A DNA stretch of 64,000 nucleotides, taken from assembly GCA_013373425.1 (NCBI GenBank), contig JABXHW010000033.1, forward strand, positions 1 through 64,000. The letters are read 5' to 3'. The DNA is from Flavobacteriia bacterium. Lineage in GTDB: Bacteria; Bacteroidota; Bacteroidia; Flavobacteriales; Schleiferiaceae. The position numbers and the translations under genes were made by a program. This document shows positions 54,482 through 58,387 of the stretch, in pieces (the stretch's first letter is position 1; each line of letters opens with the position of its first letter). Below the pieces are notes generated by a model, which was not told where the DNA came from, made no database searches, and was given only the letters and a program-made list of their open reading frames with translations.

Positions 54482-55519
54482 ATGTCTGGAGTATCGATAA
54501 AAGACCGTATTAAACGACTCACTGCAAGTCAGCCTCTACTGGAGCAGATGATGTTTTCATTCTATCGAGCCAAGAATTTGAACTCTGGATTGGCCGAACT
54601 AGAACGACGAGCTGGTCTCTCTATGTACGATGTTGATGGATTGTCGAAAGAGATGCCCTATGTTCCTCTTGAACGGGTAATCGACAACAACATATACGGA
54701 TATGCCAATTATCTCAAGCAGTACGCAGGGATTGAGCGGGATTTAAAGGCATATATGGAACACGGCTTATTCCTCGGTAAGATTGTGCATCTAGATCAGT
54801 TTGCCTGGCATTTTGCTCGAATCATCACAATGAGCCAAGGGCGAGTAGATATTTTGAAGGAGAAAATTCCTCAAAAAGAAGCCATCGCGGTGGGTCCATA
54901 CATTCACTATGCCCCCCCTCTCTACTCCGATGAGGAGATGGCGCGAATGAAGAACGAGCTAGGTAAAACTCTGCTAGTTTACCCTTTTCACAGCATGAAA
55001 AATGTGAAGGTTGGATTTAATGAGCAGGAATTTGTTGAAGAGATTAAAAGGGTAGCGAAAGACTTTGACAATGTACTTATCTCTCTCTATTTCTCTGATG
55101 CACTGGACCCTGAGCGATGCGCTCCCTATGAAGCGGAGGGTTTCAAGCTCATTACTGCAGGGCACCGGTTCGATCAGCATTTTGTCGCTCGACAGCGGGC
55201 ACACATTGAGCTCTCTGATTTCACCATGAGTAATGGAATGGGAACTCAAACAGGCTTTTGTATCTATCTCAACAGGCCGCATTACATATATCGACAGGAT
55301 ATTGAGCAAAAACCAATTAACTCCTCGGAAAGCGCGCGCTTCTATAATAGTTCAGGTGGTGACGAACGTGAGCTTGTCGCCTTTCAACGGGATTACTTTT
55401 CCAGGTTATTCGGAGAATTCCGTTCGGATATCTCGGAAGACCAACTAGATGCTACTTCCAAGTTTTGGGGTTTTGATCAAGTGAAAACCAAGGAAGAATT
55501 GCTATCTATTTTCGGCTAG
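54482..55519 (+). CDS. Unrecognised predicted transferase in the polysaccharide locus
   Basis: 345 aa from the ATG at 54482, soluble, no signal peptide. I do not recognise a named family. The GT-B-like hallmarks are AIAVGPYIHYAPPLYSDEEM, TLLVYPFHSMKNVKVGF and ELSDFTMSNGMGTQTGFCIY, which resembles the donor-site region of glycosyltransferases that use CMP-activated sugars or of capsule (Kps-like) transferases. It is the only plus-strand gene between the NulO operon and Wzx and is divergent from the NulO operon, so a NulO transferase is a reasonable guess. The 3' end overlaps the Wzx gene by 18 bp. Confidence 0.6.
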   Translation: MSGVSIKDRIKRLTASQPLLEQMMFSFYRAKNLNSGLAELERRAGLSMYDVDGLSKEMPYVPLERVIDNNIYGYANYLKQYAGIERDLKAYMEHGLFLGKIVHLDQFAWHFARIITMSQGRVDILKEKIPQKEAIAVGPYIHYAPPLYSDEEMARMKNELGKTLLVYPFHSMKNVKVGFNEQEFVEEIKRVAKDFDNVLISLYFSDALDPERCAPYEAEGFKLITAGHRFDQHFVARQRAHIELSDFTMSNGMGTQTGFCIYLNRPHYIYRQDIEQKPINSSESARFYNSSGGDERELVAFQRDYFSRLFGEFRSDISEDQLDATSKFWGFDQVKTKEELLSIFG

Positions 55520-56758
55520 TTTCCTTGATAGCGCCTTCCTGAAGAAGAGAATGGCTGAAATTGCAAGCAGTGCCTCCACAGCGAGTTTTGCCCATGCTGC
55601 ACCGAGAATTCCATGAAACTCAATCAGCGTATAGTTCAAGGCAATAGATGCGATGCCAGCCAAAAGAACTACGTATAGGTTCTGCACATCTGCCTTGATA
55701 ATCATCAAACCTTGTTTCATTGCGAAATGACTCAATGTTGTTAGCATGAGTACAGGCGACATCCACTGAAGAATAGGAGCGACGGAGAGATAATCTTCTC
55801 CAAAGAGCAATTCAACGAAAAACGACGGGAACAAGAAAATAACTAGTCCCGCGAGCGCCGTTAATCCGAGCATACCCCATTGGAATTTTGCTCGCTCTGA
55901 TACATATTGATTCAGATCTGACCCAGCTGTTCTAGCTAGATGCGGGTATAGCGCGCCGCCCACTGGAGTGAAGAGAAAGCTTTGTCCAACCACGATTAGC
56001 TTCATCGCCGCTGCAAATAACCCTAGCTCAACATCGGATAATAGAAAGCCTAGAAACAATATGGTGCCGAATGTGTAGACCCTCGTCATGAAATGAGAAG
56101 CGAAGATGTAAAACCCGCTTTTAAGATAGCCTAATACCAACTTCAGAGGCTGCAACGAGAACTTTAGACTTGGATAGATACGATGAGCGTAAATGATTGT
56201 GGCAATACCGGCAAGTAGCTGAGCTCCGGCGTTGATTCCTAGCACGTAATAGTATTGGTCTGGCCTTCTGAGAAGAATAAAAATCAGTGCTGCGCCTAGA
56301 ACTTTAATTCCCAGGTTCACCATGGCTATCACTCCGAGTTTCTCTCTCCCCTGGAAGAGAAAGTCTGGATACATGGCCCATCCAATCACAATGGGAAAAG
56401 CATAGAGCATTGCGGTCAATTGATCTCCGAAGGTGGGTATTGCGAAAATCAATAGTATGAATAGCAAAGCGGAGACTACAAGCAGTAGAATTTTGGCCTG
56501 CATTACGGAGGAGTACACCGATGAAATGCGCTTGAAATTATCTCCTAGCTCCGCTATACGTCGCGTTGCGGTGAACGTAAAACCATACATCACAATCGCT
56601 GAAAAATAGAGCATGGTTACGGTGGCAAACTCGATGCTACCGTAGTTCTCTGGCCCGACTACTCTTGTAATGTAAGGCAGTGTAACAAGAGGCAATACAT
56701 AGTTAGCCGCTTGTGAAAGTCCGAGGTAACCAATGTTTTTTGATACGCGGTTGTTCAT
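55502..56758 (-). CDS. Wzx-type polysaccharide flippase
   Basis: 418 aa from the ATG at 56758 (start by homology; the upstream in-frame extension looks non-coding). About 12-14 hydrophobic helices of the MOP/Wzx superfamily, with NIGYLGLSQAANYVLPLVTL and ITRVVGPENYGSIEFATVTM near the N-terminus, the usual polysaccharide-synthesis signature. It flips the lipid-linked repeat unit across the inner membrane, with the Wzy-like protein at 47806 as partner. The -7-like element TACCTTCG ends 5 nt before the ATG. Confidence 0.92.
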   Translation of the reverse strand: MNNRVSKNIGYLGLSQAANYVLPLVTLPYITRVVGPENYGSIEFATVTMLYFSAIVMYGFTFTATRRIAELGDNFKRISSVYSSVMQAKILLLVVSALLFILLIFAIPTFGDQLTAMLYAFPIVIGWAMYPDFLFQGREKLGVIAMVNLGIKVLGAALIFILLRRPDQYYYVLGINAGAQLLAGIATIIYAHRIYPSLKFSLQPLKLVLGYLKSGFYIFASHFMTRVYTFGTILFLGFLLSDVELGLFAAAMKLIVVGQSFLFTPVGGALYPHLARTAGSDLNQYVSERAKFQWGMLGLTALAGLVIFLFPSFFVELLFGEDYLSVAPILQWMSPVLMLTTLSHFAMKQGLMIIKADVQNLYVVLLAGIASIALNYTLIEFHGILGAAWAKLAVEALLAISAILFFRKALSRKLAENR

Positions 56759-56763
56759 TGGCT

Positions 56764-56771
56764 CGAAGGTA
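56764..56771 (-). promoter_or_regulatory. Near-consensus -7 element TACCTTCG
   Basis: One mismatch to TAnnTTTG on the minus strand, ending 5 nt before the Wzx ATG; another leaderless-type candidate. Confidence 0.35.
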
Positions 56772-56868
56772 AGGATTCGTGGGGTGGGATCTCCAGGCCT
56801 AAGCAATCATGTTTACAGTAAGACAGCCTTCCGAACGAAATCTGACATTTGCACAAAATTCCACCGAG

Positions 56869-56888
56869 CATCGGGTGGTAACCCGATG
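56869..56888 (+). repeat. REP-type hairpin 1
   Basis: CATCGGGTGGTAACCCGATG: perfect 8-bp arms around a GGTA loop, preceded by CGAG. Same core as hairpin 3. Confidence 0.85.
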
Positions 56889-56933
56889 TCGTGATTAAAT
56901 GGGATCTTCAGGATTACCGTCTTTTTTTCATTT

Positions 56934-56953
56934 CATCCCGTTACCACGGGATG
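56934..56953 (-). repeat. REP-type hairpin 2, inverse orientation
   Basis: On the minus strand: CATCCCGTGGTAACGGGATG, perfect 8-bp arms around the same GGTA loop, preceded by CTGG. The stem differs from hairpins 1 and 3 at paired positions with compensating changes. Confidence 0.82.
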
Positions 56954-57093
56954 CCAGAGATAATGTGATGCATTGAATCGAAAATTAGCGAAGCACAGCA
57001 TGTTCCAAGCCGTAATTAAACGTTTATCCACGAGTCATTCAAACAAGAACACTTTGTTTTGATTGTGGGCTAATAACAGGACATTCCATCTAG

Positions 57094-57113
57094 CATCGGG
57101 TGGGAACCCGATG
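57094..57113 (+). repeat. REP-type hairpin 3, at the RAYT start
   Basis: CATCGGGTGGGAACCCGATG: perfect 8-bp arms around GGGA, preceded by CTAG. The final ATG of the hairpin (57111) is itself an in-frame start for the transposase. Confidence 0.85.
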
Positions 57114-57140
57114 ATTCATAAGGAACATAAGAACAAAGCA

Positions 57141-57551
57141 ATGGGGGCATCATACGTAAGCGGATACATTCATTTAGTTTGGGGGACAAAGTTTCGCATG
57201 CCATACTTGAGTGTTAGGGAGGATCGGAAACGAGTGGCTCATGAGATTCGCCAGATTGCCAACGAAGAAGGTGCCCTAGTCATAGCTGTTTACGTCATGA
57301 TAGATCACACACATCTACTGGTAAAGCTACCAAATAGTATCGCCCCAAGCGTATTCATGGGTGCCGTGAAACGAAGGAGTGCATTTTGTATGAATCAAAA
57401 TGAGCAAGTGGTCAGGTGGCAACGTGGTTTTGGAGCTTTCCATTTGAGCGAAGCGCAGGGTATTGCGACTCGTAAATACATTGTGAACCAAGAAGAGCAT
57501 CACAAGTTGAAGCAATACGAGGATTTCCTCGATGAATCAACCGAGTTTTGA
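57141..57551 (+). CDS. REP-associated tyrosine transposase (RAYT), IS200-like
   Basis: 136 aa from the ATG at 57141; an in-frame ATG at 57111 would add 10 residues and sits inside REP hairpin 3. Y1 HUH-type transposase of the TnpA_REP/IS200 group: N-terminal YIHLVWGTKFRMPYL, HUH motif in MIDHTHLLVKLP (a Thr at the U position), and the catalytic tyrosine in YIVNQEEHHKLKQYEDFL. Full length for the family. RAYTs are domesticated transposases that move or maintain REP palindromes; no IS ends or partner TnpB are visible. REP hairpins lie upstream but none was seen downstream. Confidence 0.9.
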   Translation: MGASYVSGYIHLVWGTKFRMPYLSVREDRKRVAHEIRQIANEEGALVIAVYVMIDHTHLLVKLPNSIAPSVFMGAVKRRSAFCMNQNEQVVRWQRGFGAFHLSEAQGIATRKYIVNQEEHHKLKQYEDFLDESTEF

Positions 57552-57559
57552 AACACGTC

Positions 57560-58387
57560 CTACGACGTCGCTCGAATACCCCGATAGAATATCTTTACCA
57601 ACCACACCGGTGAAAGGCGAACAATGGCCTTAATCACGAAATGAACTGCATAGTGATGTGGCTTCAACAGACCGAGTTTGTATAAGTCGTTGATCTCCCG
57701 AAGTTCATTGCGGAAATACTTCATTCCACGCCTTCTTTTGGAAAAGAAGGCCTCTCCTGTTCTAGCTTTTACGGTAGACTCTTGAAGATTGGCGGTCTTA
57801 TGGCCATTCATAATAAACCGCGCCCACAATTCGTAGTCATCTCCCACCGCACCATAGTCTTTATATGCGCCGAGCTCAACCAAAATTGATTTGCGGTACA
57901 TGACCGTCATATGATTAAACGGGCAGCGCCAGCGGGCGTATTTCATGATTTCGGCATCGGTTTCAGGAAGTCGACGAACCGCCATGAGTTCAGACATGCT
58001 TTCATCGTATTCTTCAATCCACGATCCGATAATCACTAAGTCTGAATCGGATTCAATGAGTTGAATTTGCTTCTCAAAGCGAGTCGGCTCACAAATATCA
58101 TCGGCATCCATACGGGCCAGCCACTCATGGGAAGCAGCATGAATTCCTGCATTCAAAGCGCCAGAGAGTCCTCTATTCTCTTCTAATACAATATGATTGA
58201 TTTGAGAAGCTTTGGCCTTCCAACCGCTGACCACTTTAAGATGCGCTTCAGAAACAGGTCCGTCCTGAATGAGCACCACCTCATCCGGTATGAGTGTCTG
58301 TTCAATTACACTTCGAATGGCTTCCGAAAGGTGTTCGGGTTGATCCCCTTTGTAAAAGGGCATGATGACCGAAAAAGGCGTCGACAT
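57560..58387 (-). CDS. Family 2 glycosyltransferase
   Basis: 275-aa inverting GT-A transferase: FSVIMPFYKGDQPEHLSEAI at the N-terminus, DEVVLIQDGPVSE (nucleotide-binding region), ARMDADDICEPTRFEKQI (DxD motif) and GDDYELWARFIMNG (catalytic ED-type region). It belongs to the amylovoran/WcaA-like group. Length is typical. It should add one sugar of the repeat unit. A -7 element (58411-58418) lies 23 nt upstream. Confidence 0.94.
   Translation of the reverse strand: MSTPFSVIMPFYKGDQPEHLSEAIRSVIEQTLIPDEVVLIQDGPVSEAHLKVVSGWKAKASQINHIVLEENRGLSGALNAGIHAASHEWLARMDADDICEPTRFEKQIQLIESDSDLVIIGSWIEEYDESMSELMAVRRLPETDAEIMKYARWRCPFNHMTVMYRKSILVELGAYKDYGAVGDDYELWARFIMNGHKTANLQESTVKARTGEAFFSKRRRGMKYFRNELREINDLYKLGLLKPHHYAVHFVIKAIVRLSPVWLVKIFYRGIRATS

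Follow-up and report, generated by a model that had tools for sequence, protein, structure and literature searches.

Organization of the locus

Contig JABXHW010000033.1 of a Flavobacteriia bacterium (assembly GCA_013373425.1) carries a small transposase gene, tnpA, with three perfect 20-nt hairpins upstream of it. The stretch that was analyzed, positions 1 to 64,000 of the contig, is referred to as the window. The gene encodes a Y1 transposase of 136 aa, and the hairpins resemble repetitive extragenic palindromic (REP) elements. The locus is probably a REP-type system, and its enzyme would be a class 1 transposase from the branch of the insertion sequence (IS) IS200. Its features are the following.

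56856..56888, plus strand: REP-like unit 1, with leader 56856-56864, foot CGAG 56865-56868, and an 8-bp hairpin at 56869-56888 with loop GGTA
56934..56966, minus strand: REP-like unit 2, inverted and paired with unit 1, with hairpin 56934-56953, foot CTGG 56954-56957, and leader
57081..57113, plus strand: REP-like unit 3, with a leader that begins ACATT, foot CTAG 57090-57093, and hairpin 57094-57113 with loop GGGA
57141..57551, plus strand: tnpA, Y1 (HUH) transposase, 136 aa (PF01797, E 8.9e-20)

The unit is 33 nt long and consists of the 20-nt hairpin and a 13-nt leader that includes the foot. Folded alone as single-stranded DNA (ssDNA), each hairpin reaches -8.8 kcal/mol (z -3.7 to -4.8), and among 200 shuffles of each, 0, 1, and 0 fold as well for hairpins 1, 2, and 3. 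The 20-nt pattern of hairpin 1 has two matches in the window with up to three mismatches, versus none in 100 shuffles. A first-pass annotation had reported three REP-type hairpins at these positions, each with a tetranucleotide directly before it, and both statements agree with the present analysis; the 4-nt foot is conserved over 16 copies in the genome. The annotation also gave all three the same loop. Hairpins 1 and 2 do share GGTA, the latter on its own strand, but hairpin 3 has GGGA. Hairpin 2 is reversed with compensating changes, as described, and its altered G-C pairs keep the stem paired. The inverted pair of units 1 and 2 has its feet outward and spans 111 nt overall, while unit 3 ends 27 nt before the start of tnpA. 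None of the three hairpins is followed by a T run in its own orientation. A single terminator-like site was found in a scan here (56878-56861, minus strand), and it is built from other base pairs. A terminator reading of the hairpins was dropped for want of a fitting T run.

The stem of the unit has changed in a paired manner. With up to three mismatches, the 20-nt pattern has 11 matches in the genome, versus 0 for the same pattern read backward. A covariance model of 33 positions, R1, was built from 12 gapless aligned copies (the 11 pattern matches and hairpin 2). Units 1, 2, and 3 are all among these 12 sequences, and they score E 1.6e-8, 9.9e-8, and 7.4e-10. Four of the eight stem pairs vary on both sides in the 12 copies, three are constant, and one deviates by a single unpaired cell. 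Cells are paired in 99.0% of cases, versus 88.4% in shuffles, and 0 of 500 shuffles reach 99.0%. The loop, GGNA, and the two stem pairs that adjoin it show no variation in the 12 copies; weaker copies deviate. Among the 16 copies at E<0.01, foot positions 1 to 4 are C in 15, T in 15, A in 11, and G in 16, so that CTAG is found in 9 and CTNG in 14. Leader positions 3 to 5 are A in 15, T in 14, and T in 16. Conservation is confined to the 5' side of the hairpin, and the 3' flank is unconserved.

Classification of the transposase

The Y motif of TnpA points to subclass 1.2 of the TnpA_Y1 family. The gene is intact and is the sole PF01797 match in the assembly. The expected catalytic residues H56, H58, and Y113 (the predicted catalytic tyrosine) are all present. 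The HUH pair H56/H58 lies in DHTH, WQ is at residues 93-94, and residues 113-121 read YIVNQEEHH, which gives the signature Y113---Q--H120H121. The transposase of Psychroflexus locus L064 likewise reads DHTH. By comparison with relatives, made by eye, the start codon ATG at 57141 is favored over TTG at 57063, from which the extended frame would read through hairpin 3.

The sections of Quentin et al. 2018 that treat this group (PMC6006769) define subclass 1.2 by Y---Q--HH and describe it as related to the IS200 transposases, low in copy number, and present mainly in Cyanobacteria and Bacteroidetes. Table 1 of that paper has "no" under REP for this subclass, and IS200-type terminal structures are said to be generally absent. 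TnpA has both the Y---Q--HH signature and the low copy number, with one PF01797 match, and by signature it belongs to subclass 1.2. The table's "no" does not describe this genome, where the hairpin occurs at 16 places, or the relatives with hairpins near their genes. We take the REP link as a correction of the description and not as a bar to membership.

TnpA is IS200-like by its profile score, and the reduced tree does not reject a grouping with the IS200 transposases. It scores 52.5 bits against the NCBIfam IS200 model NF033573 (cut-off 55) and 32.8 bits against the model NF047646 for REP-associated tyrosine transposases (RAYTs; cut-off 80). In a tree of 79 rows the IS200 references are a clade of their own (support 100/98) that leaves TnpA outside, and the same clade appears in the reduced tree, which has 46 rows (100/99.9). 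TnpA sits on a long branch, and its nearest protein by path is from a genome of the same genus (G002), with 31% identity. Membership in class 2, the RAYTs, was tested by the defining motif Y---NP, which is absent (YIVNQEEHH), and was rejected.

Dispersal of the hairpin family in the genome

The hairpin is a dispersed family in its own genome. R1 finds 21 places at E<=1, of which 16 have E<0.01 and 15 have E<0.001. Twelve of the 16 copies were used to build the model, so that four are independent finds. The R1 counts are a lower bound, since 150 of 1174 first-look candidates were scored. The first-pass annotation had named confinement of the hairpin to this locus as the outcome that would speak against it, and the 16 places at E<0.01 are the opposite result. 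The five weakest places have E values of 0.09-0.7, and two of them are identical in sequence; in four of the five the leader retains CATT, and these appear to be decayed copies. R1 has two weak hits in 36 related genomes (E 0.009 and 0.09), and apart from these the family is absent from the relatives searched. No place was found by R1 in two genomes of the same genus, one of which lacks a relative of tnpA while the other has three distant ones with 28-31% identity.

The copies away from the locus are intergenic and solitary. All 13 of them fall outside open reading frames (ORFs) of at least 100 aa. For example, the copy at 1501-1533 of locus L005 is clear of such ORFs (one spans 1-1346, and none starts past 282). 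The free share of 33-nt placements is 20% in the loci of these copies and 4% in the window, and the chance of all 13 falling outside ORFs is about 1e-9 or less (naive P). The proposed check of genome-wide copies thus came out as expected for intergenic placement but not for pairing: none of the 13 has another of them within 1 kb, and the only inverted pair among the 16 copies is that of units 1 and 2. The unit had also been likened to a bacterial interspersed mosaic element (BIME). With one inverted pair, and with the copies elsewhere solitary, the case for a BIME is weak.

Many pairs of copies share only about 20-40 nt. The copies at L015, L023, L024, and L027 have stretches in common that reach about 80-100 nt upstream, and still longer blocks are common to L020, L030, and L031. 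Some hairpin copies thus hold a fixed position within longer duplicated intergenic blocks. A second dispersed repeat, distinct from the hairpin family, is found at L024:1558-1698 and at 21 other places of the genome; it is up to about 140 nt long, with 70-96% identity, and is often partial.

The locus is flanked by two ORFs of the opposite strand, named by eye from their translations: a flippase-like one (55502-56806) and a glycosyltransferase-like one (57560-58387). The first-pass annotation had the hairpins inserted here together with their transposase. Nothing points to a joint arrival: the gene is in single copy, and no empty site could be read at L024, the one copy compared.

Related loci in other genomes

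Genes with the same signature often have hairpins nearby. A total of 75 loci were examined, including the present one, 23 relatives from one search, and 51 from a second. The signature (Y, then Q and [HY]H with the right spacing) was found in 70 loci, namely the present one, 20 from the first search, and 49 from the second; the second search was biased to the signature, one query peptide being VNQEEHHK, and the first was free of this bias. Of the five other loci, L107 and L108 are cut N-terminally and still have Q--HH. Besides the window's own gene, the 70 include near-duplicates such as L076 and L079, which are from one genome. The gene at L042 has an in-frame TGA near its end and is probably a decayed copy. 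The contig of L097 is labelled as a Streptomyces griseus metagenome-assembled genome, and its transposase is very near those of Chitinophagaceae; the label or bin is probably wrong.

Hairpins were defined as perfect stems of 7-12 bp with at least four G/C, within 500 nt of the gene. Of the 70 loci, 40 contain such hairpins, 111 in all; 15 have a TAG foot, 21 have a repeated hairpin family, and 25 have at least one of these two features. The far flanks (800-1500 nt) have 9 hairpins in 8 loci, with one TAG foot and one repeated family, in 83 kb of sequence versus 66 kb for the near flanks. Ten dinucleotide shuffles gave 2-7 hairpins, with no TAG foot and no repeated family. TAG is the commonest foot trinucleotide (15 loci), and the runner-up is found in 7.

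Six hairpin families of relatives, chosen for clear hairpins, were searched for in the same 15 genomes, including the present one, with up to three mismatches. Five of the six have dispersed copies. The family of G009 has 12 matches on five contigs, in two subtypes, and orientation alternates in the C74 and C142 clusters. In G060 (Mongoliitalea lutea) there are 7 matches, 5 of them in the C11 cluster beside its gene and 2 elsewhere with three mismatches each. G053, which belongs to the window's order, has 17 matches, of which 8 form four inverted pairs with starts 50-64 nt apart. Its pattern also has 26 matches in G064 (Flavobacterium sp. 245, the genome of L083), with two hairpins matched on both strands. 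Several of the G064 matches are in inverted pairs, and the TAG-footed hairpin of L083 itself is different. One further cross-match, with three mismatches, is a place in G063. G061, an acidobacterium and the genome of L062, has 14 matches on five contigs, two of which flank its gene. G062 (Akkermansia) has 15 matches, among them two inverted pairs, 752 nt apart, that correspond to the two copies of the gene, L076 and L079. In that genome (C74, C86) the gene and its inverted flanking hairpins appear as two units with identical proteins. Six of the 15 matches are no more than 300 nt from the start of a contig, as a mobile element would be. Controls with backward patterns gave 0 throughout, save one match in G054. 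In the loci fetched, overlap with ORFs of at least 100 aa was 0 of 7 for G060, 0 of 8 for G053/G064, and 0 of 7 for G062, so that intergenic placement holds for these as it does for the present genome.

In four of these genomes the hairpin is part of a tandem double hairpin, at the following loci.

L117-L131, L152-L159, and L161-L166, in genomes G009, G060, G061, and G062: double-hairpin loci

Here a second hairpin with a stem of at least 5 bp and another sequence ends no more than 14 nt before the NTAG foot. It is found in 7 of 8 distinct contexts in G061, 10 of 12 in G009, 8 of 11 in G060, and 6 of 7 in G062, with shuffle expectations of 0.25 to 0.95. Inspected by eye, the upstream stems of G009 and G061 also differ between copies in ways that preserve pairing. 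The spacer contains CATT in many G009 copies, as does the leader in the present family, and ATT is kept in G061 copies. In G053/G064 only 1 of 8 contexts has the second hairpin. The same architecture was ruled out for the present genome, where 0 of the 13 contexts caught have an upstream stem of at least 5 bp (shuffle expectation 0.55).

Interpretation

The locus is probably a REP-type system that is run by a transposase of the IS200 branch. This reading builds on the observed anatomy and dispersal of the unit, the paired changes in its stem, the conservation on the 5' side only, the lack of this family (two weak places apart) in the relatives searched, and the hairpin families beside the genes of relatives. 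The DNA has the marks of a REP element: a short palindrome with a conserved 5' foot, dispersed and intergenic. High copy number and a BIME arrangement were not found, with 16-21 places (a lower bound) and one inverted pair. The annotation as a REP/RAYT system is therefore correct in that REP-like footed hairpins are dispersed between genes and lie by a single-copy Y1 transposase, but the transposase is no classical RAYT (32.8 versus 80 bits; Y---Q--HH). Its further statement that such systems are little described in Bacteroidota is only partly right, as the part of PMC6006769 that covers the subclasses lists the REP-linked subclasses 2.4 and 2.6 there.

Several observations weigh against this interpretation. 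About 16 copies is a low number for REPs, and copies within duplicated blocks need not each be an insertion. No family hairpin was found 3' of tnpA, either by R1 at E<1 or by a stem search within 350 nt. An empty site was sought for the L024 copy, by comparing its flanks with the two same-genus genomes; the genes matched (best 76% and 73% identity), and the intergenic stretch with the hairpin was unmatched. Subclass 1.2 is described as having WQ and DH[IV]H, and TnpA has WQ but DHTH. On 46 rows the AU test fails to reject a grouping of TnpA with IS200 (p-AU 0.41), and the tree does not settle the subclass. Among the relatives, 45 of the 70 signature loci have neither a TAG foot nor a repeated hairpin. 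The far flanks consist mostly of coding sequence, so part of the enrichment near the genes may come from ordinary terminators. The six families give no estimate of prevalence, being chosen for clear hairpins, and one of them, G006, is a negative case with 4 matches that are all around its gene. The fetched loci do not support intergenic placement in G061 and G009, where overlap with ORFs was 6 of 8 and 4 of 8; many of the overlapping ORFs in G061 are probably spurious.

It is unlikely that the locus is a decayed IS200/IS605 element, in which the gene and hairpin 3 would be the remnant of an IS bounded by hairpins, and the hairpins dispersed elsewhere would be solo ends of lost copies. The protein is IS200-like, as its 52.5 bits with NF033573 suggest, and the foot and leader are on the upstream side, as in an IS left end. 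IS200 ends are described in PMC8266576, in the part concerned with them, as hairpins with guides 5' of them. The inverted pairs of Akkermansia, which fit L076 and L079, suggest that a family of this kind can resemble an IS. However, the gene is single and intact, the 13 hairpins elsewhere come without a second copy of it, and no family hairpin lies downstream. No TnpB-like neighboring ORF was seen by eye, and no search was aimed at TnpB. Neither several near-identical copies nor hairpins at both ends, as expected for IS200/IS605, were found.

The hairpins could also be cis-acting RNA or DNA elements (terminators, translational hairpins, or protein-binding sites) that spread by intergenic duplication and are unrelated to the transposase, but this appears quite improbable. 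The intergenic placement, the longer duplicated blocks around some copies, and the 27 nt between hairpin 3 and the start codon would all suit such elements. Against this, Rfam had 0 matches at the gathering score in 12 loci, T runs are missing after the three hairpins, and the lone terminator-like site relies on other pairs. Conservation on the 5' side only is also unfavorable, as are the three copies at the only Y1 gene of the genome and the lack of the family in the two same-genus genomes, one without a relative of the gene and the other with relatives of 28-31% identity. A classical class 2 RAYT/REP system of the gammaproteobacterial type has the same layout of a single gene, neighboring REPs, dispersed copies, and a 4-nt foot, but Y---Q--HH in place of Y---NP, 32.8 bits against a cut-off of 80, and a CTAG foot (first base C in 15 of 16) in place of GT[AG]G make it highly improbable.

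For the REP-type system with an IS200-branch enzyme, we infer binding, guide function, cleavage position, and mobility by analogy. The 136-aa TnpA would recognize the 33-nt unit in ssDNA by its TCATT leader, its foot (consensus CTAG), and its 8-bp hairpin with a GGNA loop. According to the cleavage experiments covered in PMC8266576, the TnpA_REP of Marinomonas cuts at CT or CA; A3-G4 or T2-G4 of GTAG makes the choice through cross complementarity, and an altered foot moves the cut. The commonest feet here retain T2-A3-G4 and differ at position 1, and the CA of the TCATT leader is six bases before the foot. With T2-A3-G4 kept and CA in the leader, foot-guided cutting in the leader would therefore be the best-supported model. 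By analogy with IS608 and the Marinomonas REP enzyme, the T2-A3-G4 of the foot would be a guide that chooses CA or CT, most simply the leader CA. Y113 would cut in the leader, hold the 5' phosphate covalently, and transfer the strand elsewhere. In this way the non-coding unit may be copied or moved while the gene stays resident.

The double hairpins suggest a possible origin for such systems. Going by the layout of IS608, the joint between right end and left end in the circle of an IS200/IS605 element would read as hairpin, short spacer, guide, and hairpin, and the double-hairpin unit resembles this joint. Tentatively, REP systems may have arisen on the IS200 branch too, besides class 2. Subclass 1.2 TnpAs of several phyla would then each maintain a hairpin family, in many cases with an NTAG foot. 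In G009, G060, G061, and G062 the dispersed unit is a tandem double hairpin whose two stems enclose a putative cleavage region and the NTAG guide, as though a transposition joint had become fixed as the REP and spread independently of the gene.

Subclass 1.2 had been described as IS200-like, but neither an IS nor linked to REPs, which left its role open. With a dispersed hairpin substrate next to the gene, the subclass acquires a testable function. The feet of REPs would widen from GTAG to NTAG, with the T-A-G guide positions of the cleavage model kept. In addition, the system would give a view of how an IS transposase becomes a resident enzyme that spreads REPs.

Comparison with known systems

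Overall the locus would work like a REP/RAYT system but is not a member of class 2. TnpA resembles the TnpA_Y1 of subclass 1.2, in the account given of that subclass (PMC6006769), in Y---Q--HH, in WQ, and in being a short protein with a low copy number. It differs in the dispersed hairpin family beside the gene and in the middle residue of its HUH motif, which is T and not I or V. With the IS200/IS605 elements of subclass 1.1 (IS608 and ISDra2) it shares the protein branch, the hairpin with a guide-like foot on the 5' side, and a leader that possibly holds the cleavage site. Unlike them, it is not multicopy and has no right-end hairpin.

The class 2 RAYT/TnpA_REP systems, such as those of E. 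coli and Stenotrophomonas and the Marinomonas REPtrons, also have a single-copy resident gene, neighboring hairpins with 4-nt feet, and dispersed intergenic copies. In contrast, the present protein is of another class, and the foot is CTAG here and NTAG in several relatives. There are only about 16 copies, which are solitary away from the locus, and the hairpins are upstream of the gene only. REPINs, the inverted doublets of REPs, are similar to units 1 and 2 in their inverted arrangement with feet outward. The difference is that one such pair is found among the 16 copies here, while in G053 8 of the 17 matches are in four inverted pairs.
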